A stretch of DNA of 64,000 bases from Ulva prolifera (lineage: Eukaryota > Chlorophyta > Ulvophyceae > Ulvales > Ulvaceae), in contig CM041201.1 of NCBI GenBank assembly GCA_023078555.1, positions 1,619,713-1,683,712 of the forward strand, given 5' to 3'. Shown in pieces: positions 4,607-54,613 of the stretch. The notes beneath the pieces were generated by a model that searched no databases, was not told the DNA's origin, and was given only the letters and a program-made list of their open reading frames with translations. Within the stretch, counting starts at the first letter, position 1. Every line of letters begins with the position of its first letter. The position numbers and the translations under genes were made by a program.

Positions 4607-4607
4607 C

Positions 4608-4974: not shown

Positions 4975-4992
4975 TATATGTATGTATGTATG

Positions 4993-8491: not shown

Positions 8492-8510
8492 TGTATGTAT
8501 GTATGCATGA

Positions 8511-25641: not shown

Positions 25642-26913
25642 ATGTTGACCGTTACAGCAGCGATCCTCTCCATGCATGCGCTCTGCGCTGCACTGCAGGG
25701 CGACCCCGCCGCCGCCAGAGTCCTCCGTGGCGTCAGGAGAGGCAACATGCTTGCATCGCTGGAAGGCCCAGCCGTACCTAACCCCCCCATTCATGAGGCC
25801 CCCGGCCCCTGCGGCGGCCTCCAGCAGTTGCCCTGTGACACCGGCTGTGCCTCAGAATTCATTCTGGGCGTCAACGGCCTGTGTGTCTTTGAGATGCCAG
25901 CTGTCGCGGGCCGCGGCGACAAGGTGAAGGAGGGGGATGGCCACACTCGCGATGAGGCTGCAGGCGACAGCTGGGGCAGGGCGTTGCTGCGCGTGCTGCG
26001 CAAGAAGCCTACACCCCCAACGCCCAGCGCCGACCGGCGAGTCCGTGACGACTCTAGGGGGACAAGGGCTCAGAAGCGTACCCGCCCTTCCGACCCCGTC
26101 CGCACCCGCAACGGCAAACGCGCCCCCCGCCGGGCCCGCCCTTCCGACCCCGTCCGCACCCGCAACGGCAAACGCGCCCCCCGCCGGGCCCGCCCTTCCG
26201 ACCCCGTCCGCACCCGCAACGGCAAACGCGCCCCCCGCCGGGCCCGCCCTTCCGACCCCGTCCGCACCCGCAACGGCAAACGCGCCCCCCGCCGGGCCCG
26301 CCCTTCCGACCCCGTCCGCACCCGCAACGGCAAACGCGCCCCCCGCCGCGCCCGGCCCTCCGACCTGAAGCGCACCCGCACCGGCAAGCACACTCCCCGC
26401 CGTGCCCGCTCCTCTGCCACCCGCCGCCGCACCCACACCGGCAAGCCCGCTCCCCGCCACGGCCGCAATGCCAAGCGCTCCTCCCCGCCACCCCGCCGCT
26501 CCTCCCCACCACGGGCCCACAACCGCAACCAGCACTCCCCCCGCCCCTCCGGCCGAGGGCGCCGCCACAGCCACGTCCACCACCACCACCACCACCACAG
26601 CAAGCACAGCGGCGAGGGTGCACTCTCATTCGAGGGTCACCAGGAGGGCCACGAGGGCGAGGGGGACAGCTCGACGGTGTACGTGAAGGGTGACGTCGGC
26701 ACAGTGTTCGTCACCTCCTCCGGCTCCGGGTTCATCTCCGCCACCCCTTCCCTCGGCAGCTATGGTGGACACCACGGCGCCCCGCCCCTCGGCAGCTATG
26801 GAGGCCACCACCACGGCGCACCGAACACTGTAGACCACACACCGCCGCCAGTGATTGTTGTCGCCCAGCCCCACCCACCGCCCGTCCACCACTACCAGGT
26901 GCTTCAGATGTAA
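25642..26913 (+). CDS. Secreted polycationic repeat protein (Arg/Lys-rich 18-aa repeats, His-rich tail)
   Basis: A single coding exon of 423 residues. A 5'-UTR exon (about 25000-25123) and an intron ending GTGCAG at 25629 precede it. The protein starts with a signal peptide (MLTVTAAILSMHALCAALQG). Next comes a short domain with four cysteines (PCGGLQQLPCDTGCASEF, GLCVFEM). Five perfect 18-residue repeats follow, with core RPSDPVRTRNGKRAPRRA (26083-26352), then two diverged ones. A His run (HVHHHHHHHSKH) and a Gly/Tyr/His/Pro-rich end (LGSYGGHH twice) close it. The mature protein must be strongly basic. Possible roles, all inferred: a wall or mineral matrix protein, an antimicrobial polycation or a nucleic-acid/polyanion binder. 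A histone-like role is unlikely given the signal peptide. Confidence 0.85.
   Translation: MLTVTAAILSMHALCAALQGDPAAARVLRGVRRGNMLASLEGPAVPNPPIHEAPGPCGGLQQLPCDTGCASEFILGVNGLCVFEMPAVAGRGDKVKEGDGHTRDEAAGDSWGRALLRVLRKKPTPPTPSADRRVRDDSRGTRAQKRTRPSDPVRTRNGKRAPRRARPSDPVRTRNGKRAPRRARPSDPVRTRNGKRAPRRARPSDPVRTRNGKRAPRRARPSDPVRTRNGKRAPRRARPSDLKRTRTGKHTPRRARSSATRRRTHTGKPAPRHGRNAKRSSPPPRRSSPPRAHNRNQHSPRPSGRGRRHSHVHHHHHHHSKHSGEGALSFEGHQEGHEGEGDSSTVYVKGDVGTVFVTSSGSGFISATPSLGSYGGHHGAPPLGSYGGHHHGAPNTVDHTPPPVIVVAQPHPPPVHHYQVLQM
26083..26352 (+). repeat. 54-bp minisatellite encoding five identical 18-aa repeats
   Basis: Five in-register 54-bp units, identical or nearly so, followed by diverged units to about 26460. 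Near identity at DNA level points to recent expansion or gene conversion. Confidence 0.92.
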
Positions 26914-27901: not shown

Positions 27902-30900
27902 CTAGCTGCAAGCTGCGGCGTAGCGCTCGGAGACCTTGTCCCAGTTGACCAGCTTCTCCATGAAGGTGTCCACGTACACGGGCCGCTGGTTCCGGTAGTC
28001 CACGTAGTACGCATGCTCCCCTACACACAGCAGTGCCGGCTTCTCGCCGCGCGCGTGGCTCTGTGTGTGCATTGCAAAGCCGGTCTCGTGGTGCCGGTAG
28101 CACCAGCACTTCCAGGGCACCACCCAGCACATCACAGGCACGCGATGCATGCAGCATCAGGAGAATGAGAGTGCATGCGCATCGCAGAAACGCACATGCC
28201 TTCACTGGTACAGTATGTCAAACACATGCAGAATAGAGCAACAGACGGGAGACATGCTGAGGTGCTGGAGGGACCGGCATCGGCCTTCGCAGCGATGCGG
28301 GGGCCCCCCAGCGCAACAGGATCTCAAGGTGCCGGGGTTGCCCCGTTTCTCCAATGCAGGCTAGATCGCGGCTCTCTGGGTGCTGACGATGGCAATGCGT
28401 GATAGAGTGACAAGGTCACAACGAAGAGACGGTAGCACGCTCAACAGACCTGAGCCTGCGTCACAGGGTCGCACGCGACACTGAGGGGTTCGTGTGTGTT
28501 CTCCCTCTCACACTCGGCGGGGGAGAGGACAGACTCATGCTGTTGGTCTTCACTCAGCACACAAGCAGGCAGAGTGATGTGTGGCTGTCCTACACACTGC
28601 AGGGGACTGCAGGAGGAGGCAGAGGAGGGAAGAGAGGGCAGGAGGGGGGCGGTGGGGGGGGGGGGGGGGGGGCGGGATTGGAGGGGCGCACAGACATCGC
28701 AGCAGAGCACCGGCACCTGCACACACACGGCACACACGTCAGCAGGGATGGTGATCGTGTTTCTGCGCTGCTTCCGTGTTTCGCGGTGCTGCCCACCTCG
28801 CCGCCTTCACCCTTGTGACACACACATGCATGATGCCATAGATGCCATAGACGGCCACATCCATTGGCTACATATGCAGTTCGGTGTCGTCTTTTGACGC
28901 ATGCATGCGCATGTGCGGTGCACACGGGAGCCCCTGGCTGCAAGGAGCATAGGCTTGGAGTGCGTACCCCGGAGCCCGAGGCGAGCGGAGTCTCGGCGTT
29001 CGGGGTCTTGGCGATGGAGAGGCCGCCGGCCGAGTCGGACACGAGCCAGGCCCAGCCGGAGCCGAACTGCGTGACTGCGGCCGTCTTGAAGAGCTTGGAG
29101 AACTCCTCAAACGAGCCAAAGGCGGAGTTGATTGCCTCGAGGAGTTTGCCGCAGGGCTCACCGCCGCCCTCGGGCTTCATGCTCTCCCAGAAGAAGGTGT
29201 GGTCTGCACGCATGCGGGCTGGTCTGGTCTGCACGCATGCGGGCTGGTGTGGCACAAAGTCGGCGAGGCAGCGCGCTGGGGTGTGTAACCTGAAATAAAT
29301 CTGCATTTACTGAGCCGTATCCTGAGAAGGAAAAACACATCTCTGAACTGACAGGACCACATATGGCGAAGGGGTGAACCACCTGGACACCCCCCTCAGA
29401 CGACCGTACCGGGTGTATGTATGCAATATTTCGGGTGTGGTCATTTCGGAGGGAGGCAGAGTGACGTTCGAACGAGGTGAGCAGTGCTCCACAGGGCCTT
29501 CCTCTCCCAGAGGGGTTCCCGCTGAGCTGATCAAGATTGAGTGGTGCAGCACCGCAGAGGGACAGGCGCCGTCGGGCTGCGGTCGCTGTTACTGGCTCTG
29601 CCAGCCCGTTTTCAGCCACGAACGCCGTCTGATTTTGTCCAATCCAGGCAGCATTCTAGGCGGTTCCAGCGGCATTCGAGAGACGTGCGTGTACACATGT
29701 GTGGGTACGTTGTTGTCGGGGCATGAGTTCCCAGTTTTGGCAGATTACTCTGTGATGGGAAGCGGGGACTTGCCTGTGCTGCTCTCGGATATGCTTGAGT
29801 CAGGACTAGTCACATGGAGAGCAGGCACGCAAGCATGTCAGAAAATGGGGCCTGCTGGGATGTTGCAGATGCGGCCACGCTGAGGGATGTTGGACAGCTG
29901 CAGTGATGTGCTTGACGCCAAGACCTGAGCCACCGGAGCGACAAAACACGCAACGTGCTGGCAGGCCATGATTGCAGTTCATTAGTGTGATGGCATCCGC
30001 ATTGCATGCTGGACAGTGATGGCTTATCAGATGTCAAGGCGGCTGTGTGGACTTCTGTGTATAGCTTTGGCACACGATCTCGCAACACGGGTACGTCGCA
30101 GTCGTTACGGATTCGTATGAGCACAGCTTCTGTGGGCTATGAGGCGTTGTGCAAGGGGAGATGGGACGCACTCCAGACCTGCGCAGCGTTGTTGAAAGAT
30201 GCGGTGGGTTGTCCATCGTTCCACGTGGCTTTGACAATTTCTTCAATCGCCATTTTGTCCATGTCGGAGCCCTCGATTGCCTTGTTCAAATTTGTGACGT
30301 ACCCGCCTGCACAGCCCCTGGCGTTAGGCAGGGTCGACGTGGACAGCACATGACCAGAGATGCAAGCATAGCGATTCAGTGCCTGGCGCTGGAGGCTCAG
30401 GCGACACCGCGGAAGGATGTGCACAGGCTGTGCCGTGGAACCCGTTGAGCCAACCGACTGAGCGCATGATGATGCTTTATGTGCAAGCGATGAGGTCAAC
30501 ACAGCCGGAATCGAGGGCAAGGGGAGAAACGAGAGTCGTACGATGATGCTTGCCCCAGTGGTACTCCATGCTCTCCTACATACGGACGTGCGCTGGTGGA
30601 TAAACCTCTTGGCAGCAGTGATCGCAATACGGCGAGGGCACGATCTCAGCCCATGAGTCACGCAGATAGCTCCCGAATAGCCTGACATAATTCATGGGGG
30701 AAGATCGGAGACTTATGGGTCATGGGCCCCAAAGGCAGAGATAGAAAAAGCCAGTCAACGCACCTTTGACATGTGAGGCTCCAGAGCATGCTGCACGCAC
30801 ACCGCAAGGTTAGTATGACAGCAGATTTCATTACAACGCACTGAACGACTCGACATATTAGCCAGTGACGATAGAACGCTGCAGTCCACAACCGCAAGCG

Positions 30901-31412: not shown

Positions 31413-33792
31413 ATGGCTCGCTGCTCCTTTGCTACCGGACAACGCCTGCAGATGCAGGCGCGCCGAACCACAGCGCCTCGTCAAGTACGTCTTTGAGTGT
31501 TTGCGTTTGGTGTAACCAGAGGCTTGACTGCTTGAGCATGTTGTTGGGTACATGCAGAGCGTCGTGACCAAGGCAGCCCTCGAGCTGAAGGCCCCCCCAT
31601 ACGAGCTGGACGCCCTTGAGCCTCACATGAGCAAGGTACGTCGCTTTGGATGCAGTCTGAATCAGCGCCAGCTGCCGGCGACTGCTGCCACGACTGTCGG
31701 AGGAACTGAACTGCCGAATGCTGATTCTGGGCGATGACGCGATCGCAGTGCCTGTATGTACAACAGCCGTCGTAGCTTGTTTAGAAAATTGTACTTACCG
31801 CATGAATTCGACATGCATCCGGTCGCGGGTGCACGCGCGAAGCGTTCTCCTCGCGTGTGCCTTTTTTGCGGTCAGCAGATGCTGTCATACCCTACGGCGT
31901 TTATTGGAGCCAGTGCCCAGAGAATGCACCAGAAACCTTTGCTTTAGACAGTAGCTCAAGCTACTGATTTGACACGGTACAGCGTGTGTGCTGCGTCACG
32001 CTGCGCCTGAAGATTTGACCTCCGATACCTCCATCTTTACCGCAGCACATCTGCCACAGTGTTCCGCGATGATTGATCAGCCCACTTTTGCAATCACTGC
32101 TGCAATCGAATCCCGTAATGGCATACATGATGCGTTGTTGGGGGAATTGATCCATATCTTGGTGTTACTTGGGCGAGGACCATGAACTGCAGTTGAGTCG
32201 AAAGTGTGAGCTCGCTGGGCCTGAAGTGTAAAGTCAACTTACATTTACTGAGCCGTATCCTGAAAGGACATTGACAACGCATGTTGTGCAGAACACTCTG
32301 GAGTTCCACTGGGGCAAGCACCACAGTGCGCTTCCTCCCTACCAGCATGTCATGATTCCGCATGTGCTCTGTTGTGGCGTTCTTGTACGAGATGATACTA
32401 TCAGGCACCGGCATCGGTTTTGTTCATCCTCAATGCACACTGCAGGGACATATGTGACCAACATGAACAAGCAGATTGAGGGCACAGACCTTGAGGACAA
32501 GCCACTTGAGGAGGTAAGATGGATTCGCAGCCCTCTTTTCTCTGTTGTTCGGACATTGCATCCAGTCCTGCATGGTGATGCTCAACTGATACCCAGTGTG
32601 GCGTGCTTCATCTAAGTGGCCACCACCCTTGTCCTGGCACGCCCCCAAAACTATGTCATCATGCAGTCGCGGACAGAGCTGGCGTGGGCATCATTCCAGA
32701 GTGCTGCGCACATAGGCACCCCATCTGTGCACTCTGACACAGGCTGGTGCCACGTCACACATCACTCACCCATGCTGTAGTTGTATCATGCCAATCAACA
32801 GCCAGCACGCCGCCTGACCGCTGCTGCAAATTTCACCCAAGTTAGGAAAACAGAGGCAGCCTGGCGTCTGCAGATCATCATGGCCTCCTGGAACGGCGGC
32901 GACCCGACCCCCGTCTTCAACAACGCCGCCCAGGTCTGGAACCACACCTTCTACTGGGAGGGCATGTCGCCCTCCGGCGGCGGCGCGCCCTCCGGCGCCC
33001 TCGCGGAGGCCATCGACAAGGCCTTCGGCTCGTTCGACGAGTTCAAGGCGCAGTTTGCGGCCGCCGGCGCGACGCAGTTCGGCTCCGGCTGGGCGTGGCT
33101 CACCGCCGCGAGCGACGGCACCGTCGCGATCGAGAAGACTCCGAACGCCGTCTGCCCGATGGTCGAGGGTGCGGGCCGCGCCTGTGCCTCGAGAACACTG
33201 CCTCTGACGTGGCGGTGTTGGTCGCAGAGAATCCAGTCTGGTGCATTGAGGCCGATGTGATGGCGTGTTTGCACGTCTGGGTTGGCTGTATTACAGCACT
33301 GAACCTTTTCCTGCTCGTACTTGCTGACTGGCCGCCTGCCATCGTCCATCTGTTTGTCGCCAGTTCTGGGTGAGGCTTGTCTGGTGCCTCTGTTATCATA
33401 TGCGCATGTGTTGCCACATGGGGAGTGCAAGTCCGCCCTCAGATTTCCTGCATGGTGGTATGGTATCACTGCTGCTGTGATTTGAAGAATTGACTTTGGC
33501 GCATTGTGCAGGAAAGACCGCGATTCTGACCATGGATGTCTGGGTACGCCCCCTACGCACCTGTCGGTGAAGATTTGTGTTTGGCTGGACAATCTGATTG
33601 TGGTTGCGAGCGTGTGAAGCTTTGTGTCACTGTGTATCCTTTGGCATGGCTGATGCGATTGTCGTTGGTGTGCAGGAGCATGCTTACTACCTGGACTACC
33701 AGAACGCCCGCCCAGCATACATCAGCACATACATGGACAAGCTCGTGAACTGGGAGGCTGTTGCCGCTCGCTATGCTGAGGCAACCGCATAG
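31413..33792 (+). CDS. Iron superoxide dismutase with plastid transit peptide
   Basis: Seven exons (31413-31484, 31558-31635, 32292-32325, 32446-32513, 32874-33168, 33512-33543, 33676-33792) join in frame to 231 residues. Exon 1 gives a leader rich in Arg, Ser, Thr and Gln with few acids (MARCSFATGQRLQMQARR), typical of a chloroplast transit peptide. An ATG in exon 2's acceptor could otherwise be taken as the start, but it lies in intron sequence if exon 1 is used. Mature part: [16 protein letters not shown], then ligands H56 (LEFHWGKHH), H108 (AAQVWNHTFYW), D191 and H195 (MDVWEHAYY). It removes superoxide in the chloroplast. Exon boundaries match those of SOD1, so the pair arose by duplication. 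TGTAA follows 44 nt after the stop. Confidence 0.93.
32226..32280 (+). repeat. Fragment of the tttactgagccgtatcc repeat in SOD2 intron 2
   Basis: It contains aagtcaacttacatttactg, then agccgtatcctgaaaggaca and ttgacaac. It ends about 11 nt before the 3' splice site of exon 3. Confidence 0.75.
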
Positions 33793-37953: not shown

Positions 37954-40900
37954 ATGCAGGAACAGACGCAACGATTGCGCAGTCTGAACGGCGAGAGTCA
38001 TCTTGATGTGAGACAGTATCAGCAAGAGCTGCTCGAGGAAGCCCGGGCCGGCAACGTGCGCAGCTCCTCTGCTCAAGTGCGTGCGGATGCCTCCCAGAGC
38101 TTGACACCGTGCACACGACGCAAGTCCTGCCAGCATGCAGGTTGTCGCGTTCCTGGAAACTGGCTCTGGCAAAACTCTCATATCAGCGCTCCTTGCCAAA
38201 GAATTCCTGGCGACGCACAGTCACAAACGGATTGTGATGCTGGTGAGCATGCCACTCTTTCTAGCCATGCCTGATCTATCCACCATATCCCGAACATGAT
38301 CAAAGGACTGAGCTCACCGATGTATTTTCATTTAAGACGAACGGTGCAGTGGTAAGGTTCTCCCAAAGTTCTCCGAAAGTGATGTTGGTGTGAGTGAACT
38401 GCTGCAGGTACCCACCAAGCTCTTGGTTCCGCAGCAGGCTGGCCTCTTCCGCAGCTATGTCGCAGCGGAAATCGGTGAGTACACAGGTGACCGTGGTGTC
38501 GACGTATGGACGCCAGCCAAGTGGAGCGAAGAGATCAGGTGTGCCACGGCCGACAATCTGTGCTTCCCTTGGGAAGCTCCCTTCTTGTGTCGCACAACGC
38601 TGCCAGATCCCAACGAGGTGCAAATTGCGCCAGCTTATGATTTTCTGAAGCAACGTAGCGTCTGTTTGCAGTCTCTGCACTCCCATGAGGGCGCACAGTG
38701 AGCTTCCGAACGATGCACTGTTGTCATGGAGCTGTGCTTGTTATCTACCTGCCTCTCCGACACAGTCCCTGTGACACAGGAACCACAAGATCCTGATAAT
38801 GACACCCAAGATCCTGGACGACCTCCTGATGTGTGGCAACTTCCAATTCCGGGAGATCTCGCTGCTTATCTTTGACGAGGCTCACCACTGCTCGAAGGGC
38901 CATCCCTACGCCCAGATCATGCGGAAGTACGCAGAGGTGCCCTCCAGCGAGCGTCCCCACATCTTTGGCATGACCGCCTCCCCGGTCAACACCAACGTGA
39001 AGAGCCGGGAGAAGCTGCTGTCGAGCATCGCGGCTCTCGAGCAGCTCATGGACTGCACCCTCGTCACAATCCATGACGAGCAGCTCGAGAAGCTGCAGCA
39101 GGCAAGCCCCTGCCCCACCACCTCATCCTCAACATGTTTGAGTTTCTGTGTTTATGCACGCTCCCACATGCATGCCCATTGAGAAACTGACCAAACTCCG
39201 AAGCCTGGGACCGGATGGAGGAGCCAACCTGCAAGCTGCCTTGACTGCAGCACGAATCATCAGGAATGCATCATGACTTCAGCTGCCACCACGACTGCCA
39301 GTGTCTGTGAAGCACACGCCGCTGTGCAGCAGTGTTGTCGATCATGTGTATCAATCCCAAATATTCAGGCCTACTTTCTGGGTGGCAGCCCTGGACATGC
39401 TGCAAAGCGACCCAACACTGCTGTGCAGACCGTCCCGATGCCCGAGACGGACTCCTTCGAGTTCACCATCCCCACCTTCTCCGCCCACCACAACCGGATG
39501 GTCATCTTTGCAGTGCAGCAACTGCTGCGTGACCAGGTGCGGCCGACCCTCAGGCCACCCCCTCAGGCTGCATGCGCTCGGCTTGTGTGCTTTTGTTCGC
39601 GATGCTTTGTAGTCTGCTATGGGTGTCTGCCATACGATGGCCCGAGCCCATTGCAATATTTTTTACTTTACTGTAGTACAGTAACTGTACTGAACATTTG
39701 TCTCAAGCTCAGCAGTGCTCGCGTGGCGCCATGGCACACCCCGTGGGGGAACCGCGGATGAGGTGCATGTGGCGACCTCGTGCGGTTCTGCCACCTCCCC
39801 GATGTGCCGCCCGCGCGTGCAGAAGCTGCTGGAGATGACGCGGCAGCACGGGAACCTGCGGCGCAAGCTTGTGGCGTTCGGCGGCGCGAGCGGCCCCGTC
39901 GTGAGCCTCGACGACCGGGGGCCGCTCAACCGCGCCGAGGCCGTCGGGGACTGGCTCGTAAACAAGCTCTGCTTCGCGCTGCTCCACCAGGGGCCCTTCT
40001 GCGCGGCGCTCGTGCTCCAGGTCCGCCCGCTGCCCCTCTCCCCGGCCCGCTGCCGCCCCGCCACTCTGTACGCTGCACAGCAGTGTTGGGTCGCTTTGCA
40101 GCATTTCCATTTTTGCGGCATGAGGGCTGCCACCCAGAAATTAGACCTGAATATTTGGGATTGTTACATTTGATCGCGCCCGTCGGCCTAACACTGCTGC
40201 CACTCTGTACGCCGGCATCACGGCTGTTGTGACGTGGTGCCGCTTGGTGCTTGTTGTTTGTAAAGTAAAGTAAATCTGAATTTACTGAGCCGTATCCTAT
40301 TGGACATTCACAACTCCGAGTCAACGGGACCACATATGCCGAAGGGTCAAACCACCTGGAAACCCCCCTCAGACGACCGTACGTAACTCACAGGGCCTCC
40401 TCCTGTGCTAATCGAGGTGGTAACGTACGGCCGTTTCGATTCCCCAAAGCGCACGCAGAATCGAACCCAGGACCTCCTGAAACGGAGGGGGTAGCTTTTA
40501 TACGTTCCTCACCCCATTGGAAATTGTTGTTGCTTACTATTTTCCACATTGCTTGCCGCGCTGCTTGCTGCAGTGCAGCAGTGGCCCGGGAATGGTGCTT
40601 GTAGCGTGCATGTGTCCGGCTGGAGTCGCTTTGATTGAACAGATTGATTTGTGATTTCTTGCTCTGCCATGCAATGGCCCGAGCATATGCAATTTACCAC
40701 AGGACTTTCTTCCTATCACAGGACATTCTTCCTCAACTGCTGGTGTTCAAACATTCACACAGACATGCAGGACTACTGCCGCAACTGCTCCAGCGACGGC
40801 CGCCTCAGCACCCTCGGCAACGTCGGCGCCGAGACTCAGTTCTACGCGGCCGCGCGCGCCGCAATGACCGGCCGCAAGTCCCCCACCCCCAGCGGCACCC

Positions 40901-43900
40901 CTACCTCGACCCCCCCCTCCACGCCCCCACACCACGACGCGCCCCGTTCCTGCGACGCCATCGTCGCCGAGCTGCACGCTCTAAACCACCGCATCGTGGC
41001 CGAGATGCCGGAGCTCGCGGGCCGGAGGATGCCGTCGGCAGAGGAATGCTTGCGGAGCGCGCTGCTGCGTGCTGTGCTCCTCTGCGTGCGCATGCTCGTC
41101 AGCGACCCGGTGCGACGCTGCTGTGCGGGCATGGACCTGCATGGGGGCGGAGGCGTGGTCATGCATAGCTTCCGAAACATATTTTTTTGGTTTTTTTGAT
41201 TGAATTAATCCAGCATTCAAACACGCTTTTGTGTGTTCGGGCTGTGTCAAAAGTACAATGTCAGGTTTCACCGCAGAGTCCATGCACGACAACACCCATG
41301 CGCCTGTATGGAGGCGGGGCGTGACCATGCATGGCTGTACATGTCATGCATGGCTGTACATGCCATGCATGGCTGTATAGCCCACCGGGTGTCTCCCGGG
41401 TAGATTGCTCTGACGGTTCGTGCCAGGTATATCGCTCATGCTGCATGAACGGCATGCATGTGCAGGTGCTCGCCGACTGCCTCAGCGCGCAGGCGCGGCG
41501 CCTGCTGTTTGCCCGCGAGCCCGCCCCGGCCCCGGACCCCAGCACCGCCAAGTCCACCGAGCCCGCCGCGGCCGAGCCCGCCGCATTTGTCGACACCAAC
41601 ACGCATGCCATCGCCGCGGTGCTCGAGGCCGGGCTGCATGCGGTGCCCGCGGAGATCCTGCAGGAGTGCGTGCTTCTGGGGCCGGGGTCGCGGCGCGCGG
41701 CCGCCTGGAGCCGCCACATGCTGTGCGACCTCGTCACCGACAAGGTCAGCCGCGCTCTGGCGCACCTGTATGATGCGGGCCGGCAGGCACAGGAGAAGCA
41801 GCCGGTGCGGCGCTGCCTCGGCCAAGAGCCCCGCACGCTTCGTCCGATCACATCCGCGAGGTTGCGCCAGAAGGCCTTGCCGTGATCTGCTCGAGATCCT
41901 GTTTTTCTGATCATGCACTTGGGTTGTGCGCGTTTGGATGCACTCATTTATAATCTGTCATGCAATGGCCCGAATTCGTGTGTACTCATCATCGCGTTTC
42001 ACACCAACAACTCAATGAGGCCGGATGGATGCAGCGTCTCGAATGACTTTCACTGACGTATGTTTGGCATATGCGGTCCTGTTAACTCGGAGTTGTCAAA
42101 TTCCAATAGGATACGGCTCAGTAAATTCAGAGTTTACCTTACTTTGCTGATGTACATTTACGGCTCTAGCCTGAACTTGGGGTTACCGCTTGTTTGAGTA
42201 AGAACTGTTGACCCGAAGCATTCGCACAAGGTTCCTTGTTCGCAGTCTTCTGCCGCAATGTGCGCCCCGACGCCGACGCCGCAGGCCTGCAGGGGTCGAA
42301 GTGGGCGGCGCTGGTGTTCGCTGAGAGGCAAAGCTGCAGCCTGGCGATGGACCTGGTCGTGAGGCGCACACCCGCCCTCGCTGCCGTGCTGCGCACAGGT
42401 TCGCCCCAGCGTCCTCGTTTGCTCACCTCGCCTGCCTGCATGCACCCATGCCCCTATCACACGGAGGTCTGTGTAGAAATCATAAGCAGGCGTAGAGCTT
42501 GGCATGTCATTGTCTGCCTTGGTGCGCCCCGAGCCAGAACGGTGCCGCCTTCTGTGGTGTGGCGTGTTCGTGGCAGGTATGCTCACGCTGCACGGAAGAA
42601 CGTGAACGCTCACTGTCGCTGTCGCAAGAACCAAACGCATTGTTTATCTACTTTGTTGGTGCTCTGAGCCGACATGTGCATCCGCAAAATCCAGACAATT
42701 TCTACGCTGATGCACTGGACAGCCCCACTCCTCTCTCTCCCCAGGGTCCGGTCCAGCGCTGAAACGAACGCACAAAAGCATTACACATGAACTTGTTGAA
42801 AATTGAGTAAATTGAGCAGGCACGCTCCAGCCCGATGCCGTGCTGTGCGCTTTGCAGGCACTCTCAAGTCGCGCAACGCGCTGATGAGCACGACGCACCA
42901 GGGCGAGGTCATCTCGCGCTTCCGCCACGGCGCGCTCAACGCACTCTTCTGCACCTCCGTCGCCGAGGAGGGCCTCGACATCCAGCAGTGCTCCCTCGTC
43001 ATCTGCTACGACGTGCCGAAGCGGCCGCTGTCGATGGTGCAAACGGTCGGCCGCGCGCGCTCCCGCGGCTCCCGCGTGTTCTTCATGCGCGCGATGCAGG
43101 CTAGCGGCAAGAAGGCGCAGGTTCGTGCGCTGTGCTGTGGCTGCAGGGGGCATGCGCCACGCCATGCCGCTCCGTGCGTAGAGCGCATCCGGGAGCAGAC
43201 GGTGGTCCGTCTTGTTGGTCAAGCACCCCTGCCGCAGAACCACCTGTAGACACGGTGCATCAACGCGGTGTGGTGTGGATTGGATGTACCGCTGCAGGCC
43301 GAGCACTCCCCGCATGCATGGCTGCAGCTGTGCGGTGCAGCATGTGGGTGGCGACGCCCGGAGCCTCCCCTCCCGGTCTGTGATGCCTTGTGTTGGCTCT
43401 GGCGCGTCTTCCTCGCCGCAATCCCGCCCACTCCTTATTTATAAGATATGAGATACAGACCCCGCTGGTCCCACGCTGATGTGGCGTGCTGTGCAGGACA
43501 ACATGGACCAGATGGCACACTACACGCAGCAGATGCGGCGCGCCGTCGTGCTGCGCGAGACGATCCACGCGCTGCACACGCCGCAGCGCCCGCTGAACGA
43601 GCGGGCGGTGATGCTCGGAGACAAGTCTATCGATGGTGGCCGCGCCCGCTCCATGCTCTCCCAGTGCGACCCCTCCCCCACTCCATCAACACCCTCTCAC
43701 CTGCACCTCCACGCTCTCAGATTTCAATGTGCGCAAAAAGCAAATTAACTCGGAGATGGCTGCCGCATCGGGCGCCCTCCGCCGGACGCGTCCTGCGTGC
43801 GCGCGTTGCGCAGACTCACAGTTACTTTCTGCATCAACTGTACTGCAGCAACATGCAGCTTGGGCGCCCTCTGGAGCAGCCGGCGTTGCTGTGAGCTTCC

Positions 43901-46900
43901 AGGCAGTTCCCCGGTAGCCATCCACCAAATCACCTCTGCACATGCACTGAGACGGCTGCGCATCACAATCACAAGAGACGGTGCATTTCAGGGACGTTTG
44001 GATTCGAGTTCCTCGCCGGCCATCCCGACACCGTGTGGCGTGCCTGCATGTACACCCTCCTGTGCATGTGGACCATGCACGTCAACGTTTTCAATCGGCA
44101 AATCAATTATGATGAATACTGTAATCGCACAACGGAACTCATTCAAACTCAAATCAATCACAAATACCCAACTACCACTTGACCACCCCCTCCACAATTT
44201 CTGCTTCAGTACGAGTTTGAATTCAATTCAGCAGCTCGACGCCGTGTGGTGCGCCTGCCGCCGTGTGGTGCGCCTGACGCCGTGGCTGCAGGTACGTGCA
44301 GGCGCTCGCGCACTGGAAGGGCCGCTGGCACGACCTCCTCAGCGGCCACAAGTCCGCCGACCGCAAGTCGCGCGAGATCCGCGAGTGCGAGCCGCGCTAC
44401 AGCACGCACCGCTCCGCCGAGGGCGGCACGCCGCTGTTCCAGGTCACCCTGCATCTGCCGCCGTCGGCGCCGCTGCACCACGTCACCGGCGACCGCTGCC
44501 CGACGCGCGCCGCGGCGAAGGACAGCGCCGTGCTGCGGGGCATCTCCGCGCTGTGGGGGAAGGGTGTGTTTGGAGACAACTTGCGGCCGACGCCGCCGAA
44601 GGCCCTCCTGGTGTGCCCTGCCTCCGTCGTTGCACTGTCTCAGAGCGGCTCTTCTGCAGCTGTAGTTGTATCAAGCGTCGATCGCGGGTAGATGCTATGG
44701 CTGGGCATCGGGTTGTATCTGTTTGATGAAGAGTATCCAACTACTCGACGGCGTTTAGTAGTCATTGGTTGGGGCATGCGCCGCCGTAGCGAATTGACGA
44801 GTGCTCATCGCCGAGTGGTGACACCGAAGCGCCAGGCTGCTGCCAGGCGGCTCCAGATGAGATGCCTAGCAATTCCTGGGAATTCGTGATACACGCAATC
44901 TTGCGCATACGCCGAGGCGCTCTCGCCCCGCGGGTGCAAGTGCGCCGCTGCCACGCAGGACCTAGAGGAAGAGATGGAGGCCGACGACGAGAACCCTAAC
45001 GAGTGGCGCGCCCGGCAGACGCTGCGGCGGCCGCAGCAGTTCACCGTCACGCAGCAGCCGCCGCTCGCCCTCGACCTCCGCCACGCGCCCCTCGACGATG
45101 CCGCCGCCGTCGACTCCTGCTGCTTCGTCGCCACGCAGCTCCACCTCTACGCGTTTGACCTCACCCCGGAAAACAACGCCGAGAGCCCGGGAGGTGCGGG
45201 GGGTGACGCTGGCGGCGGCGGGTGGGGAGGGGAGGAGTTGGGGGAGGGGGGCTTCCCGCGCATGTGCCTCGGGCTGCTGCTGCTGCAGCGGCTGCCGGAG
45301 CTGCCGGCGTTCCCGGTGTACGAGGCTCCGCGGGCGGAGGGCGGGGAGATGGTGGTGTATCGTTGTCAGCTGCGGTACTGCCGCACGCTGGACTTGTCGA
45401 TGGGTGCGCACCTTTGCTGTTGCCGTCGGCTGCGCAGGGTCCGGCCGGCAACTGTGTGGGTCCATCACTGCACACGGCATGCGTGGCCGTCATATGCGTG
45501 CGATGATAGCTCTGGGTAAGCGACAATTCGAAGGGCTCAGCTGAAGGTGCATGCAGCGTGAATGGCGAGACGGAGGTGTCATGGGTAGGGGATCCAGGCG
45601 TACAACTGGAACATACGAGTTCTGCAGTTTCGGCCGTGCAATTCTGGGTGTTGTGGCTGAAATAATCAGGCCCGTGCTTGACAGTGGTCCGCGCCGTCAC
45701 ATCATACCACCCAATCATGGAACTCGTCGATACTGTTGCGCGCTCTGGGCTTGAATGCACTCCTTAGGACTTTGATTCATGTTGGTACCTTAGTGACAGG
45801 TCCCTTGAAGCTGTCAACAACTGCCTGGCTGCTGATGAGTAGCTGCCGTGGTGCAGAGCAGGTAGCAAAGGCTCAGCGCTTCCATTGCAAGATGGTGCAG
45901 ACCGCCCGCGGCAACAAGGGCCAGCCCCCACCCCTCAGCCCGCAAGGCGCGGTGCGCCCACCCCCCCCACTTGCCTACATGCAATGTGCCGTCCTGCTGC
46001 CTGGCACCCTGCGCTGTTGCCACCGCCAGGCCCTCAGACTACTTCGAACGAACCTGCTTCTGAGCTCTGCCTCCTTCCACTCACCAAGTGTTGCCGCTAG
46101 TACTAGGATGGGCCTCTGTCCGCCGTAGACTATACTTCCGCCGCCTGTTGCGGATCTACAGTAGTGTGATGTGACCGCACTGTGGACATCGGTGGCGCTG
46201 CCAATGCCATGTGCCTCACCCCACTGAATCGTGGCCTCTGGCATTGCGATTACTCATCTCTACGGATTGCTGTCGCGGTGTGGTCACTACTAGACACCAA
46301 TCAACTTCTGTCCCTTCCCACTGGTGTAGTTTTGCTGCAGCTATGTACTGCCACTGACCGTTCCTGTTCATATCCCCTACTTCCTGTGACCTTCCTCTGG
46401 CACAACTGGCTCATCGAGTCTGCTGCTGCTTCCACGTTGCCAGATGAGTGTTGAGATGCACACAGTGTTGGGGATGCTGCGCAGTCCATCTTCTTGTTGT
46501 GTGCCATAAAATGCCCGGAGCTCGTGTGGTTTGTATCGCTCCAGCCCCTTCCCTCTCATAACCCTCCCCTCCCATCGCCGACTGCCACTGCAACAAGAAA
46601 AAAACAATCCAATTGCTGCTGCAGGCGGAGGCGATCTCCAACGAGACGTGGGGGGAGTCCTCCGGGGGGGCCTTCTACATCATCGTGCCCGTCTGCGCCG
46701 CTGGCGGCGGCGCCGGCAAGGCCCACAAGCGCCGCCGCGACGCCGGCCCGAACGGCGCGGCTCCGTTCGACCTCGACGAGCGCTCCATTGACAGCGCGTT
46801 GCACCCCACGGCCCATGACGACCAGTCCGCTGAGGAGCTGCATGCCCACGTGCGCGTTTTCCCTGCAATGTCTGTGTTTTCGTTTCATATCGTATGAAGA

Positions 46901-49900
46901 CTCTGCATAATACCTTGTGATCGGGCGCCTTGTGGTATTGACACATGTGATGTTGTGTGTTGGGCGTGCTGTGCAGCAACGGCGAGCGAACTCAGCGTGA
47001 AGCTTGCCATTGACCTTTACATTAACGTACACAGTTGATATGTTTTCATGTTTTTGGTGGTTTTTTTTTGGTCTGCAATCCCATTTCCCTCATGCGTGCG
47101 TGCAAACTTCACGGTGAGCTGGCCATGGTGTGTACAATCCTGGAAACCCTGGCAGCACGACCACAGCGCCCCGATAACCTGGACTAAATGAGCGTGTGCC
47201 TTACGCTGTCGTCATGGAAACGCCACAGCGCGCTCATGCATGCAGCTGCAACAGCTGCGGGAGCGGCGGCTGGACCCCGAGGCGACCGAGGCCCAACGGG
47301 AGGAGGCGGGCGAGCGGATGCATGAGCTGCTCGCGGGCCGCGTGCTGACCACGCTGCACCGGCCGGCGATCGCGTACCGCTTCCGCGGCTTCTCCTCCTT
47401 CACCATCAGCGACCCCTTCCCCGACGGCAGGTGCCACCCCTCCCTCTGCCGCATGCACCTGCACGAGCTCTGGCGATTTGGTCGTTGCAGCATGCGTTGG
47501 CGACCCGCTATGCATGGGCACGAGCTCTGGCGATTTGGTCGTTGCAGCATGCGTTGGCGACCCGCTATGCGTTGGCACGAGCGCTGGCGATTTGGTCGTT
47601 GCAGCATGCGTTGGCGACCCGCTATGCGTTGGCACGAGCGCTGGCGATTTGGTCGTTGCAGCATGCGTTGGCGACCCGCTATGCATGGGCACGAGCTCTG
47701 GCGATTTGGTCGTTGCAGCATGCGTTGGCGACCCGCTATGCATGGGCACGAGCTCTGGCGATTTGGTCGTTGCAGCATGCGTTGGCGACCCGCTATGCAT
47801 GGGCACGAGCTCTGCGGCACAGCTGCGTCCCCCTCCCGTGACGTCCACATTGGCCAGCTGATGCGCAGAGTCACTGTAGGTGTGCTCGAGTCCCTGCGCC
47901 CTGTCCTGTTACCTCATGCATGTCTCCGACGAACATCGCCGCATACTCGGAGGTATATTTTCGTCCTCATCTGATCTGCGTGGTGTACCAGTATGACTTC
48001 AGGCCTGATGGCGACGATCAGACTCGACTGTGTGAACGCACCCGGCGACCCAAACACCGCGTGTTTGGCACGCGTGCAGGCAGGGCGAGTACAGATCCTT
48101 CCTGGAGTACTACACCAAGCGATACGGCTACGAGCCCTCCTCCTTCGACCCCCGGGCCCCGCTCCTCCTCGCCTCCACCGCCACCAGCGCCGTCAAAGAC
48201 ATCAACTGTCTCGCGCCGCCGCGGCCACAGACCCCCTTCGCTGCTGCATTACTCAGCGCCGCCGCGGACCACGCGGCGGGCGCAGACGCAGCCGCCGTCG
48301 ACCCTGAGGGGGTCCCCCTGAAGAATGAAGAATCCCCTGCAGCCGCCGGGGCAAACGCGCGCGTGGAGGCTGCGCGCGAGGGGCTCGAGCGCGCGGCGCT
48401 GCGTCAGGGTTCCGCCACAGCGCGCGGCGCCGACGAGGGCGTGATTGATCTGGTCAGCTCGGATGAGGGGAGTGAGGGGGCCGCGCCGGTGGAAGGGGGG
48501 GGTGTGGCGGAGGCAGCTGGGGCGGGGCCGGGCGGGGGGGCCGCAGCGGCGCCGGCGCCGCCGCGGCGGCAGCACGAGGTCCACCTACCGCTGGAGCTCT
48601 GCCGGGTCCACCGGCTGAAGGAGGAGCTGCTGCGTTCACTGCAATTCCTACCCGGCCTGCTCTACCGCGTCGAGGTACACCGGCTAGTCTGCTCCTGTGT
48701 TGATGCATGCATGTGTGCATGCATGTGATGGTACGTTGCACATACCGGCCGCGGAGATCTGCGGCGGTGCCGCCGTTACACCGTATTCCTGCATGTTGCA
48801 TGCAGCAGCCACTAGAAGCAGCTCGGGTGTCGATCCTGCGCACACACATAGAACATGTCCGCATTGTCAGTATGCATGCATGTGTGTGTAAACGTTATGA
48901 TAGTCCGTATACAAGAGTCGCCGTATTCGCAGATTGGTAGCAGAGCTGGCGTATAATCACTGTTCCACATTCGGCACCGCACGTTTGGAGCCATGGGTGT
49001 GGCCGGTGTTGATGTGGGTTTCGATCTTCTGAGGTGCTGCTTACGACGTGCCTGTGCAGGCTGCATCAGGCCACCTGGGCATTCGTCCCGGCCCAGTGAT
49101 GTATTGCTTGGAGCCAGTTTTCTTTGCGCTTTGCAACCTTGATATGGTGATGGTGCAAACTGTACATTTGGGGTGTTGTTGTTCGGACGGTTTCTGTCTG
49201 CATGCTCAGGCTGCGACCGTTCAGTCGCTTCTTCAAAAACGGCCAGACGAATCATCGATGTTCCACCAAGCAGCGCCCCTGCACCACACACTCTGCATTC
49301 AAAGCAGCATACGCACTCCACATAGATGCACGACACCCCCCCGCTGCCACGCTGCTGCCCACGGCCCCTGCTGTGCGCAGTACTGGATCGCCTGTCCCAA
49401 CTAAACAGAACAAATTATACGTTCTCAACATACAGTTCAGGACGCAAGTAATGTAATTATACCTGGAGAATGGATCCCGGCCTATTTCTGGATGGCGGCC
49501 CCAGCAATATTGCAACCCGACCCAACGATGCCGTGCCGCAGGGGCTCTTGGTGGCTCATGAGGTGTGGGTGCGGCTGTCGCCGCCGTGGATGCCGCGGCC
49601 GGTGCGGCAGCCGGCTTTCACCCTCAAGGTCCTCGAGGCGCTGACCCCGCAGGGCACGCGCGACGTCATCGACAGTGAGCGCTACGAGCTGCTGGGGGAC
49701 GGCGTGCTGAAGGGCATGGCCGCGCGGCACGTGTTTCAGGCGGGCCGGGGGGACGAGGGCCAGATGTCGCTCGCCCTCTGCCGCCTCGTGTCCAACGGCA
49801 CCCTCCACCGCGTCGCCGTTGTGCGCCTCTGCTGTCCGCTGTTGCTGTTGTGAGATGCGTGAGAGCTACGGCTGCTTCGCTGTCGGCTGGTATGCGCCTG

Positions 49901-52900
49901 CACGTGCATACGTATCGAATTGCATGGCGCACTGTGTTCAGGCTGTCGATTATCTCATGCGGCGGAGTGCCCAAATTGCACTGCACAGGGTGTGTCAGAA
50001 TTGCCTTAATCAAGCATGACTCATCTCAGAACCATATCAAGGTCCTTGCCGACCCAACTGCATCAGACATCCCCGCATCGTTCCCGACTTAGCCCTGCAC
50101 CGCAGCATCGTTTGACCAGCTGACGCCACAGCATAGCCAGGGCCCGGCACCGCCCCCCAGCGCTCGCTCCACACGCGTCCGGCACAGCCACGCTCGCGCC
50201 CGTGCACCCCAACGCCACAGCCGCCGTGCAGTGGACCAAGGACGTGCGCTCCAAGACCGCCCCCGCGTACACCGCGGCCAACCGGCACCAGCGCAGCATC
50301 ACCGAGTCGGTGCGCGCGTTCCCGTACGGCCGCGCGCTGTGGCGCCCACCGGGCTTTGAGCTCCATTTCAAGCCTGAGGAGGCTCTGCTGGCCGGCAAGA
50401 AGAGCGCGGACGCGCTGGAGGCCCTCATCGGGGTCGTGTTCGAGGCCGCCGGGGAGGACGCCACCGAGGCGTGGCTCGCCTGGCTCGGCGTCCTGCCCAA
50501 CCACAAGGGGGTGCGTGAGAATTCCCATGCATGGCTGGCATGCATTGTGTGCCGCAGCACGCGACCACGTGTGTGGCGTCGCAATCAGAGCGTCGAGGAA
50601 CTTCATGTAGAGATACGTGGGTATGATCTTCGCTGTCACTCGAACCGCACGCGTGACCCGCATGCATGATGGGCATGCAGGATCCGAAGCGCCTCCCGCA
50701 GGAGCCCGACCTGAAGTTCTTGACAGACGTGAAGGCGGCGGCAGTGGCGGCGGTCGCGGCGGCGCGGGCGGTGCCTCGTGCGCGCCTGACCGGCAGAACC
50801 GGCAAGGAGGCCACGCTCCCCGCGAAGGTGCAGCTTTGGCGCGGGGCCGGCCGGGAGGACCGGCCTCCGCGGCCGCCCCAGCAGGTGCGGCTGCCTCGAC
50901 CCGGTCATGCGGCGTCCGCGAGTATCATGGCGCTGTGCGCTGTGACACTGCGTATTAACTTGGCGGCCCCAGCACAAGTGTGCCATGTTGACATGGCCGG
51001 GCGGCCCCCATGATATGGTGTTCTGTTGCTTCGGAAGACTATACCTGCTGGCGGAATGCTTGTGCAATTCCGCGTGCATTTCATCGAGGCTGATGGCTGC
51101 TCCACCCACCCTGAGGCCTTGCAGCCATAGCCCCAATTTGAGGAGGCTACGGCATGCGGTACTGTCCGGAGATGACCACCGCCGCCCTGCGGCAGGCGCC
51201 GCAACTCGATCGAAACTTCCGGGAATCTTCAGTGCAATGATCCCGCGAGGATGGCCTTGGGCAGAGCCGCGCGGCCAGGGTTCCGACGGCGGTGGCAGCT
51301 GCGGTGGGGTTCAGATGGCTGCGCCATCCATGTGGGATGTGAATCAGACATGCGACAGCGCGTGTGCTTGCAGGCGACGGGTGGGGCCGCGGCGGCAGAG
51401 TCGGCGGAGGACATCGCGGCGGCTGCCGCCGCAGAGCAGCGCAACATGTCCCGGGCCCTCAGCCTGGAGGGGCAATTCGGGCCGGTGCAGAGGGTGAACG
51501 TCGCGCAGGAGAAGGCGCGCCCCTCCCCCCCGCCACGGCTCCTCCTGCGTTGCTGTGCTTCCTCGCGGCCTGAAGTAGGCGAAATCATCAATGATGTAGT
51601 GCTGCTATGGCTCCTGCTGAGGCATCACTCACTCCCTCCTGAGTCAACACTCCCCGGAAGTATGCGATATTGTCTGTGATGTCTTACTGCTGTGGCTTCT
51701 CCTGCGTTGTCCCCCTGTGAGCGGCCTTCAACACGCACGATAGCTGATGATGCAGTACCGCTGCGGCAGCTTCCGAGTCATTCATTCTTTGTCTTGGCTG
51801 TAAGGGGAGCCTCGCTCCGGATGTCAGCCTGCCTTGCATGCACCATGCGTGCGGCTAGAGCGCATACATAGAGCCCTGCCTCCTCCCGTTTCTGCATGGT
51901 GATGTTCTCTGACCAGAGTAGCTCTAATCGACATGACGGCTTGGCTTCAATGGGCCTGGTTGTGAACGATTTGTGCGTTGCGTAGGCCCAACTGCAGCCC
52001 GCCAGGTGTGACTCTGGCGCGAGCGTGTGAGCCTGTTCCCACCAACACTGCATGCTCTTTTGCATCTATACGCTGCCTCCGCATGTGGTAGTACCCAGTG
52101 ACGACAAATTAGGCGGCAGTCTTGCGCGCCACTGCAGCTACAGCATGTGAGAGTTGCAACAAAGTGGGGCGGGCTGTGCAGCAGTACAAGTGTTGGGCCG
52201 TCGGGCTGGACCGCATAGAACAATAGTCAGGTCTAAATTCTGGGTGGCAGTCCTGGAAATGCTGCCCAGCGACCCAACCCTGCTGTGCAGGTGCAAGAGA
52301 AGCTGCGGGCGATCATCGGCGAGCCCGAGATGCTGCTGCAGATGAACTCCGCGCTGCAGGCCGCCCCGGCCGCGCTGCCCGCGCCCGCCGCGGCGCCGCC
52401 CGACGTGGCGCGCGCGCTGCACGCACACCTGCAGGACGGCGGGTGGCGGCACATCGCGCAGCAGCGGCGCGCGGCGGAGCGGCTCGCCGCAAGCACGGCC
52501 GCGACGACAGCCAAGACATTCCGGCCGCGGGAGGTGCGGGAGCGGCCGGAGCTGACGCTCGAGGCGATCCTCGGCTACGAGTTCAAGAACAAGGCCCTCG
52601 CAGAGTCCTGCCTCGTGCACTCGTGCGCCCTCGGCCCTCGTCCCACTGCTCCGGCTGCAGCTACACCGCGCCAGTGCACTTGAGGGTGACAGCCGGCACG
52701 AGCTCGGTGCTCCTCCAAAGCATGGCGGAGCCCCGTCACCGACCACAGAGAGGCACAGACTGATGTGGGTGTACCTGCATAACTGTGTCAGTGTCTGTAT
52801 GGAGGTTTGGTGAGCAGCAATTGCTTTTGTTGATGGTGTGGGTAGATGCGTGTGTTCGCTGCGCTGCCTCGCGCCCCCTCTTGCACCGGAACACGCACAT

Positions 52901-54613
52901 GCCTTGGTCAAGCCTTGCGCTTCTGTGGACCATTCGATCTGTGTGATACCTGCACGTCTCGGCCAAGGGGACCCGACTGCAATAGAACGCCAAGGGGACC
53001 TGGTTGCATTAGAACGCCCACCAATTCATGCGCCAGCAGGCAAAAAGCCGCTCTCCAAGGCCTGTGGAGGCTGCAGCACAGGTGCCGCTGAAATAGACTT
53101 GATGGATCCCAACAAATGCACACAGCACATGCATGCCTCACAGGTGTGGGGTGCCTTGCTCGAGCATACTCACCTTCAAGGCAGTGATCGGTCGCCTTGC
53201 ATCATTTCCAGGGCGGCCACCAAGACATTGGACCTGAATATTCGGAATTGTTACATATGATCGCGCCCGACGACCCAACACAGCCTCACTGTTAAGGTGA
53301 GTTAACAGCATAGCATGACATACCAACAATGATGGGTGCAGGTCGTTTGTGCACGAGTCGGGGGAGCAGGACCGCCTCGAGTTCCTCGGCGACGCGATGC
53401 TCGGCACCTGTGTCACGGCCTTCCTCTTCTACTGCCTTGACGCGGGGCGCCGGCAGGACGTGCGGCCGGAGCAGCTGCACGGCCTGCGCGCGACGCTCGT
53501 TCAGAACGACACCCTCGCCTTCATGGCCGTCTTCTGGGGCCTCGAGCGCCACCTCCGCCACAGCTCGACGCACCTCGGCAACGCGATCAACGCCTTCAAA
53601 GCGGTGCGCTCGCAGCGTCTGCATGCATGCAAGTACATATGTGCATCAATCATGGACGGTTGCGGCTGCGTGTGCTGCTCTGTCTGGTGCCGCTTGACTG
53701 TGTTCTAGGTTCACCGTCGACAAATTGCATCATAGAATTCAGGCGATTTGTTGTAGCATGAAGCGCGGCCCTGGAGCGCGCTTCATGCTGCACCACCTGC
53801 GCTGATGCTCTCCAGCAACACCACCTGGCCGCCGCAAACGCGGTGTGGAGGCTGTGAGTGGTGGTGCGTGCGTGTGCACAGGTGGTTCAAGAAAAGCTTG
53901 AGGAGAAGGAGGCGCACGAGGAGGGCCGCCACATGGGCATCATGCAGTACCTGCTGACCGCCGGCGGCTGGGACATGCAGACGATGGACCACCCAAAGGC
54001 ACTCGGGGACATCCTCGAGGCTGCGCTCGGCGCTGTCACCCTCGACTGTGCCTTCGACATGCCGCAGATCCTGCAGGTGCCATCTCCCCCTCCGGCTGCT
54101 TGTGCGCTGCTCGTGCGCCCGCTTCGCACGTGCGAGGAGAATCATGCGAGCAAACAACAAAAGTCTGAAATTGTTGGAGGTGCAGTCTCGGGAGGAACTT
54201 GAGCTTGCGTCACGTGTATGCAGGCAGTGCTCAAGGTTCTGGACGGCCTGCGGGGCGTCTCCCCGGAGATCATGCCGCGGAACCCCGTCTCCGTGCTCCA
54301 CGAGGTCATCAGCAAGCTCCTCCCGACCCTCCACCCGCAGTTCGAGTACGTCGAGCAGACCCCGCCGGCGGAGGGGGCAAGTGGGCCCGGCCCGCAGGAC
54401 GGCGACCCCATTGACGTCACCACCGGTGACGAGAACGAGGAGGTGCGGGGCCGGGCCTACATCTGGCTGCCCGGGGCGGGCGAGGGTGCGGCGGCGGTCC
54501 GGCGGGACCTGTCGGACTGGTTCTGCGGCGCCTCGCGGCGCAAGGTCAAGGCGCTGTGCGCGGAGGACGCGCTGCGGCGGCTCTCAGACAGCCCCGGGCT
54601 GCTCGTGCCGTAG
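37954..54613 (+). CDS. DCL: Dicer-like ribonuclease III (helicase, dimerisation, PAZ, RNase IIIa and IIIb)
   Basis: About 25 exons, 2,015 residues, spread over 16.7 kb. Exons: 37954-38055, 38141-38242, 38408-38538, 38780-39101, 39429-39536, 39823-40020, 40771-41085, 41466-41804, 42293-42398, 42858-43120, 43497-43663, 43822-43890, 44292-44610, 44959-45403, 46625-46849, 47246-47430, 48080-48674, 49542-49820, 50232-50510, 50681-50884, 51374-51493, 52291-52622, 53342-53603, 53882-54076, 54224-54613. Helicase: ETGSGKT, FDEAHHCSKGHP, GMTASP and QTVGRARSRGS. The Dicer dimerisation fold follows (LFQVTLHLPPSAPLHHVTGD). PAZ end: FLEYYTKRYGYE and LPLELCRVHRLKE. RNase IIIa: SERYELLGDGVLK and KKSADALEALIGV. 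RNase IIIb: QDRLEFLGDAML and PKALGDILEAALG, all catalytic acids present. It cuts double-stranded RNA into small RNAs. All joins keep frame except exon 14 to 15, which is off by one base, so that boundary is uncertain. The 39102 intron uses a GC donor. Confidence 0.93.
39330..39420 (+). mobile_element. Short terminal-inverted-repeat element, copy A, at a DCL 3' splice site
   Basis: Ends CAGTGTTG...CAACACTG, with imperfect inversion continuing inward (GTCG / CGACC). It is flanked by the exact direct repeat ctgtgcag (39322-39329 and 39421-39428). The right copy of that repeat is the 3' splice site of the exon at 39429. Confidence 0.7.
40074..40199 (-). mobile_element. Short terminal-inverted-repeat element, copy B, inverted
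   Basis: It begins CAGCAGTGTTGGGTCGC and ends GTCGGCCTAACACTGCTG, with a core (cagaaattagacctgaatat) matching the reverse complement of copies A and C. It is flanked by the 13-bp direct repeat ccactctgtacgc (40061-40073 and 40200-40212). It sits about 50 nt after the 5' splice site at 40021. Confidence 0.75.
40261..40495 (+). repeat. Longest copy of the tttactgagccgtatcc repeat, in DCL intron 6
   Basis: About 235 bp. On the minus strand it contains GGGTTCGATTCTG, close to an RNA polymerase III B box, so a tRNA-derived SINE is possible. A matching A box was not convincing. An inner inverted repeat (ccgtacgt...aacgtacgg) lies at about 40377-40430. Confidence 0.7.
42069..42156 (-). repeat. Inverted copy of the tttactgagccgtatcc repeat in DCL intron 8
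   Basis: The reverse complement matches 40266-40340, with aggatacggctcagtaaatt and cggagttgtcaa. Confidence 0.85.
47461..47814 (+). repeat. 57-bp minisatellite, six copies, in a DCL intron
   Basis: Units spaced exactly 57 bp carry ggcgatttggtcgttgcagc and atgcgttggcgacccgctat. Because 57 is divisible by three, long frames stay open on both strands. These are not genes. The array starts about 30 nt after the 5' splice site at 47431. Confidence 0.95.
49455..49541 (+). mobile_element. Diverged copy D of the short element, abutting the DCL RNase IIIa exon
   Basis: It retains tttctggatggcggcc and cgacccaacgatgcc, in the order of copies A and C. It ends GTGCCGCAG, which is the 3' splice site of the exon at 49542. 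Confidence 0.5.
52182..52282 (+). mobile_element. Short terminal-inverted-repeat element, copy C, at a DCL 3' splice site
   Basis: It contains tcaggtctaaattctgggtg and cagcgacccaacc, like copy A. It is flanked by ctgtgcag at 52174-52181 and 52283-52290. The right repeat is the 3' splice site of the exon at 52291. Confidence 0.7.
53181..53292 (-). mobile_element. Diverged inverted copy E of the short element in the next DCL intron
   Basis: It shares attggacctgaatattcgga, attgttacatatgatcgcgc and cgacgacccaacac with copy B. Confidence 0.65.

Follow-up and report, generated by a model that had tools for sequence, protein, structure and literature searches.

Within a 64-kb stretch of the Ulva prolifera genome (GCA_023078555.1, contig CM041201.1, positions 1,619,713 to 1,683,712; hereafter the window, numbered from its first base) lies a Dicer-like gene, recognized by its matches to the DEAD helicase (E 1.6e-7), Helicase_C (E 2.9e-15) and Ribonuclease_3 (E 1.7e-12) domains. 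The introns of this gene harbor a short repeated element, two copies of which adjoin predicted 3′ splice sites exactly. A sequence-only reading of the window had reported five such copies, and at E<=1e-3 five matches are indeed found, every one in an intron of the Dicer-like gene; the next-ranked matches, above that threshold, lie at 19010-19030 (E 0.005) and 28104-28127 (E 0.016). The 8-mer CAGTGTTG by itself proved a weak marker, with 8 matches against a mean of 3.62 expected and 4 of 100 shuffles reaching 8. Instead, the observation is carried by alignment of the whole element, with E values of 7e-20 to 4e-35 for four copies and 3e-5 for a decayed one. The window is denser in copies than average: at the density given by 755 first-look candidates, 0.54 copies would be expected per 64 kb (probability of four or more, 0.002, in a window that had been picked for these copies).

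Two forward copies abut exons. Copy 1 (39330-39420, + strand) measures 91 bp owing to a deletion near its left end, which was read directly (91.5% identity over 82 aligned bases, E 4e-29), and copy 4 (52182-52282, + strand) measures 101 bp (78% identity, E 7e-20). As the sequence-only reading had stated, both are bordered on either side by the 8-mer CTGTGCAG, and the downstream 8-mer ends exactly at a predicted exon start. At copy 1, the left 8-mer (39322-39329, +) would be the former acceptor, now intronic, while the right 8-mer (39421-39428, +) is the predicted 3′ splice site of an intron spanning 39102-39428 with a GC donor, so that the exon starts at 39429. Copy 4 has the same arrangement, with its left 8-mer at 52174-52181 (+), its right 8-mer at the predicted 3′ splice site (52283-52290, +) and the exon starting at 52291; the donor of this intron is less certain, being placed at 51515 by the gene finder and at a GT at 51494 by eye. 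Both exon starts are unchanged when the acceptor model is cut down to a bare CAG. Copy 1 together with its right duplication (39330-39428) forms 99 nt without a stop in the reading frame of the following exon (open frame 39183-39761), and use of the old acceptor could add 33 codons as an alternative exon. The counterpart stretch at copy 4, 109 nt from 52182, contains an in-frame stop, read by eye.

The other three copies are less regular. Copy 2 (40081-40196, − strand) is 116 bp long, inverted and placed in an intron interior away from splice sites (81% identity, E 1e-29); copy 5 (53182-53281, − strand), also inverted, lies about 58 nt upstream of a predicted acceptor (90% identity, E 4e-35). 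At both, the two flanking 8-mers agree poorly with each other (CTGCACAG / CTGCCACT and CTTCAAGG / CCTCACTG, respectively). A third, diverged copy had been placed near 49455 and said to end at an exon. The copy exists (49484-49526, + strand; 79% identity over 43 bases, E 3e-5), but it is decayed and partial, its projected end at 49530 falls 11 nt before the predicted acceptor at 49541, and its left duplication is not recognizable. Beyond the 8-mers of copy 2, a repeat of about 12 bases (ccactctgtacg) was read by eye at 40060-40080 and 40197-40215.

The copies in the window belong to a large family. A genome-wide search, which the sequence-only reading had proposed, covered 89 Mb in 44 contigs and returned 414 matches to a 35-base core within 3 mismatches (reversed control 0), 206 to the 50-base left half (control 0) and 881 exact occurrences of the 12-nt element end (control 11). 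The unit that these copies share is 102 bp long, with CAGTGTTGGGTC and GACCCAACACTG as its ends; it is non-coding, has inverted ends and is dispersed in many copies, all features of a miniature inverted-repeat transposable element (MITE). The flanks were analyzed in 94 copies, namely the best 96 of the 414 core matches minus the window copy and one segmental duplicate, chosen without regard to flanking sequence. This sample is nearest to the core pattern, with a mean identity of 92.5% against 78-91% for the Dicer copies, and its members are probably younger. At one locus (L111, G000:C7:2095980-2096840), two copies lie 109 bp apart with an identical flanking 8-mer, GTGCACAT.

The two 8-mers beside a copy agree at 7-8 positions in 57 of the 94 copies, compared with 1.3% in a control that pairs flanks of different copies. 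The duplicated 8-mer itself varies, with the consensus [C/G]TGnnCA[G/C]. Because the 8-mers differ between copies yet agree within one copy, ctgtgcag lies outside the element and is a target-site duplication. The earlier suggestion that it might instead belong to the element terminus could draw on its presence at both ends of two window copies and on 17 genome matches that join ctgtgcag to CCCAACACTG; set against 881 exact 12-nt ends and against flanks that vary between copies while repeating within them, that suggestion retains next to no probability and is rejected. In 60 duplications outside splice sites, T occupies position 2 in 69% and A occupies position 7 in 72%, in keeping with nTnnnnAn, the target pattern given for the hAT element Hermes (PMC10368747, PMC2803484).

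The genome also holds 16 matches to the hAT dimerization domain. One of the corresponding transposons (G000:C4:10090233-10092829) has ends CAGTGTTGGC/GCCAACACTG and the 8-bp duplication GCCTGCAC, and encodes a protein with DUF659 and Dimer_Tnp_hAT domains. Its terminal 9 bp (CAGTGTTGG) are the same as those of the 102-bp element, from which it differs in its length of 2.6 kb, in its coding capacity and in the sequence beyond those 9 bp. Two other hATs (C2:2130530 and C10:632410) have different ends, with 8-bp duplications, and at a fourth (C4:6825936) no ends with an 8-bp duplication were found. On the strength of the 8-bp duplications, the fit to nTnnnnAn and the 9 bp of end held in common with a genomic hAT, the repeats are classed as a non-autonomous hAT-type MITE, 102 bp long and ending in short terminal inverted repeats. 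Like other non-autonomous members of the superfamily (relatives of Ac/Ds, Hermes and hobo), the element has short inverted ends starting CAGTG in a genome that contains hAT transposase genes; it has no transposase of its own, and a hAT transposase most likely moves it in trans. Its target preference is narrower than is seen in the superfamily and resembles the host splice acceptor.

This resemblance is close. At their ends, motif and host acceptor (TGCAG|G) coincide letter for letter, and a share of the insertions therefore hits an existing acceptor exactly and duplicates it. Gene models were predicted by a small gene finder that was trained on the Dicer exons, then self-trained on the fetched loci, and told that elements are non-coding; it produced 123 acceptors, mostly ending TGCAG|G. 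This splice consensus is in keeping with a green alga, as are the 38 matches to chlorophyll a/b-binding genes in the genome, one of which is most similar to LHCI and Lhcb chains. About 18% of its predicted donors are GC rather than GT (position 39102 of the window is an example), which is either an artefact of the finder or a real feature of the genome. A predicted acceptor lies inside the duplication in 8 of the 94 copies, against 0.28 expected with uniform placement and 1.9 with motif-weighted placement in the same loci (simulated P 0.0005). When L108, which sits beside a reverse transcriptase-like frame, and L055, whose duplication is ragged, are set aside, 6 acceptors remain against 1.9 expected (P 0.013). 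A bare-CAG acceptor model keeps 7 of the 8, with L118 shifting to 21 nt. Predicted donors lie inside the duplication in four further instances among the 94 (L038, L044, L089 and L098), compared with 0.33 (uniform) and 1.0 (motif-weighted; P 0.015); L044 is doubtful, and L038 is an exonic case, the same copy as L004. At L089 (GTGTGC..) and L098 (GTACGC..), the duplication falls on a predicted donor as a mirror image of the acceptor case.

Together, 16 acceptor cases are available: 8 copies unselected for flanks, 6 chosen by the CTGTGCAG pattern and the 2 window copies. The 90 nt before the upstream 8-mer score as non-coding in 16/16, and the 90 nt after the downstream 8-mer score as coding in 12/16. 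Two of the flank-unselected copies lie in genes where protein homology can be traced across the junction. At L015, the junction ...STIE|AFIPQ aligns gap-free to prolyl-tRNA synthetases, and at L047, the junction ...AGHM|VPMDQ aligns to serine carboxypeptidase with no gap at the junction; the element and the upstream 8-mer must therefore be intronic at both, if the protein is made. Just downstream of the insertion, L033 encodes an AAA_12 domain (E 6e-10) and L075 matches JmjC weakly (E 8e-4, short of the curated cut-off), while the exons of L118, L031, L017 and L047 taken alone have no Pfam match. An assignment of the L023 gene to Argonaute found no support, as a structure-sequence search returned nothing at E 0.001 and Pfam gave only a sub-threshold match to another family. 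Complete introns were predicted at 12 acceptor insertions, with lengths of 200-1,020 nt and the donor at least 90 nt from the element; 3 more are in short loci or have no donor end. The left 8-mer is acceptor-like at most acceptor insertions, which indicates that the empty site already had an acceptor and, together with the variable duplications, bears out the earlier proposal of an element that inserts into acceptor-like sequence and copies it. Two insertions, L108 and L118, depart from this in having left flanks that match poorly. We infer that cells splice at the downstream copy of the 8-mer. A branch point supplied by the element, whose end contains CCAAC, was considered and the idea abandoned: in 168 predicted acceptors without a nearby element none of CTAAC, CTGAC, CTCAC, CCAAC and CTTAC was clearly enriched, nor did a pyrimidine tract stand out.

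It is thus very probable that a hAT-type MITE with an acceptor-like target motif has landed on existing splice acceptors and duplicated them, in the Dicer-like gene and elsewhere. The element would move by cut and paste, with the hAT transposase acting in trans and [C/G]TGnnCA[G/C] as the 8-bp target. Host 3′ splice sites end in TGCAG, and acceptors such as CTGTGCAG would be near-ideal targets. A copy landing exactly on an acceptor would duplicate it: the downstream 8-mer would remain beside the exon and serve as acceptor, and the intron would now end in ~110 nt made up of the element and the old acceptor. At either end of the element, GACCCAACACTG lies next to the duplication, which would give the acceptor the same upstream context in either orientation. 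Such insertions probably leave the gene unbroken.

Several observations weigh against this account. Likeness to the nearest hAT stops after 9 bp, and no exact autonomous partner was found, as no CAGTGTTGGGTC-like end pair at up to 2 mismatches occurs in 15 loci around hAT domains. A 7-of-8 duplication is missing from 37 of the 94 copies, in some owing to decay. The gene models were predicted from sequence by a small self-trained finder, and the downstream side looks non-coding in L009, L010, L016 and L018, all of them chosen by the CTGTGCAG pattern. Finally, acceptors are hit about four times as often as the motif alone predicts, and something besides motif preference may therefore be involved. 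The last point bears on whether the element homes to splice sites by something beyond its DNA motif, such as chromatin, opening linked to RNA, or the preferential survival of insertions there. The excess over 1.9, with or without L108 and L055, speaks for this, but no clear excess is seen at CTGTGCAG itself: 8 of 16 CTGTGCAG-flanked copies (from 17 pattern matches, one being in another sequence) are at predicted acceptors, 4 of those being weakly coding; where CTGTGCAG has no element beside it, the figure is 13 of 49 (P 0.08, or 0.66 if 4/16 is used). Moreover, purging of exonic insertions would likewise raise the share of acceptors, and the motif model, which treats columns as independent, may understate them. 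Within that model, CTGTGCAG has a target weight of 210 times the mean, and when the motif is learned with the acceptor copies left out, predicted acceptors remain at 30 times the uniform probability. The target motif explains most of the acceptor effect; an extra preference is possible and unproven, and homing beyond the motif is judged rather improbable. A bias toward intron ends and in orientation had been anticipated across the genome: the former is present and mostly attributable to the motif, while the latter is absent, with 6 sense and 10 antisense copies among the 16 (P 0.45) and 6 sense among the 10 better supported (P 0.75), in a count where L010 and L016 are alike downstream and may not be independent.

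Introners provide another possible explanation, in which the element inserts into exons and gives rise to entire introns, with both splice sites either brought along or recruited. Such elements are reportedly found in Micromonas and Aureococcus (Huff and colleagues, 2016). The four copies with a predicted donor in the duplication fit this idea, as the targets resemble donors as well as acceptors. Also in favor are the exonic copy L004 (the same as L038) and its local duplicate L003, where a 113-nt intron is predicted between two exon stretches. In a paralogous stretch, L136, the same frame continues without the element and the two flanks adjoin each other, which supports insertion with duplication; we take its peptide to resemble part of FGAM synthase. 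That intron is only a candidate for intron creation, as L003 and L004 look like decayed duplicates and the called acceptor, GAG, is unlike the host TGCAG. In addition, exon is predicted on both sides in 1 of 94 copies, though ~14% of motif-weighted positions are exonic. This scarcity only hints at purging, because the finder treats every element as non-coding and an unspliced exonic copy would escape it. An insertion also adds 110 bp, no multiple of three, and at the complete introns described above the donor stands apart from the element. Intron creation of this kind is consequently very unlikely, and on present evidence the predicted structures point to acceptor duplication within existing introns. 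The earlier proposal of an element with an acceptor at its end that can create or extend introns holds in its second half, as the intron entered is lengthened; making introns is not supported, given that the acceptor is target DNA, donors lie away, and copies occur in both orientations.

Known introners offer an instructive comparison. The introners of Gozashti et al. (2022, PMC9860276), in an alga, are likewise non-autonomous DNA elements bearing inverted repeats and flanked by duplications, and some families take splice sites from the duplication. These introners generate an entire intron whose two borders coincide with the element, whereas the present element enters existing introns and duplicates the acceptor; by its own account, the pipeline of that study excludes most secondary insertions into existing introns (PMC9860276). 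Another example is found in Amoebophrya, whose introner elements (PMC7789003) are also repeated intronic elements with inverted and direct repeats. They differ in having direct repeats of 3-5 nt at exon/intron boundaries and non-canonical splice sites, and most have no assigned MITE family (PMC7789003). Among the top-ranked open-access papers on introners, hAT MITEs and transposons at splice sites, no title points to a transposon with a target motif that coincides with the splice acceptor, which is no evidence of its being unpublished.

The proposed events would mean that a transposon can insert into a conserved gene right at a splice signal without destroying that signal, since the target-site duplication copies it. 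Acceptor duplication would then be a simple intermediate between ordinary insertion and intron-creating introners, as well as a source of duplicated acceptors. It also counsels caution, in that a target motif can largely account for repeats next to splice sites, with no acceptor carried by the element. A stronger proposition is a splice-site-homing transposon, whose target specificity has settled on host splice signals so that the duplication regenerates the signal landed on. This is unlikely; if true, the element would have a nearly harmless niche at intron ends, perhaps including donors, and introns would be lengthened from their borders. Tandem acceptors ~100 nt apart would result, with possible alternative splicing, and the element would stand one step short of an introner.

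Other features of the window include a second dispersed repeat of ~90 bp (GTAAAGTAAATCTGAATTTACTGAGCC...), located at 40256-40350, 42063-42145, 29281-29373, 32228-32278 and 8511-8548 and also seen in more than 10 fetched loci. A Dicer intron contains a 57-bp tandem repeat (47461-47814; 6.2 copies, 97% matches) with an acceptor-like GTTGCAG in each unit, and a 54-bp tandem repeat (26081-26458; 6.9 copies, 91% matches) lies within a long open frame. On the minus strand, open frames at 2297-8716 encode reverse transcriptase, RNase H, integrase zinc-binding and Tf2-1-like SH3 domains, by which this region appears to be a Ty3-type retroelement. Also on the minus strand, 19591-20619 holds an exon of a uracil phosphoribosyltransferase-like gene (E 1.7e-26).
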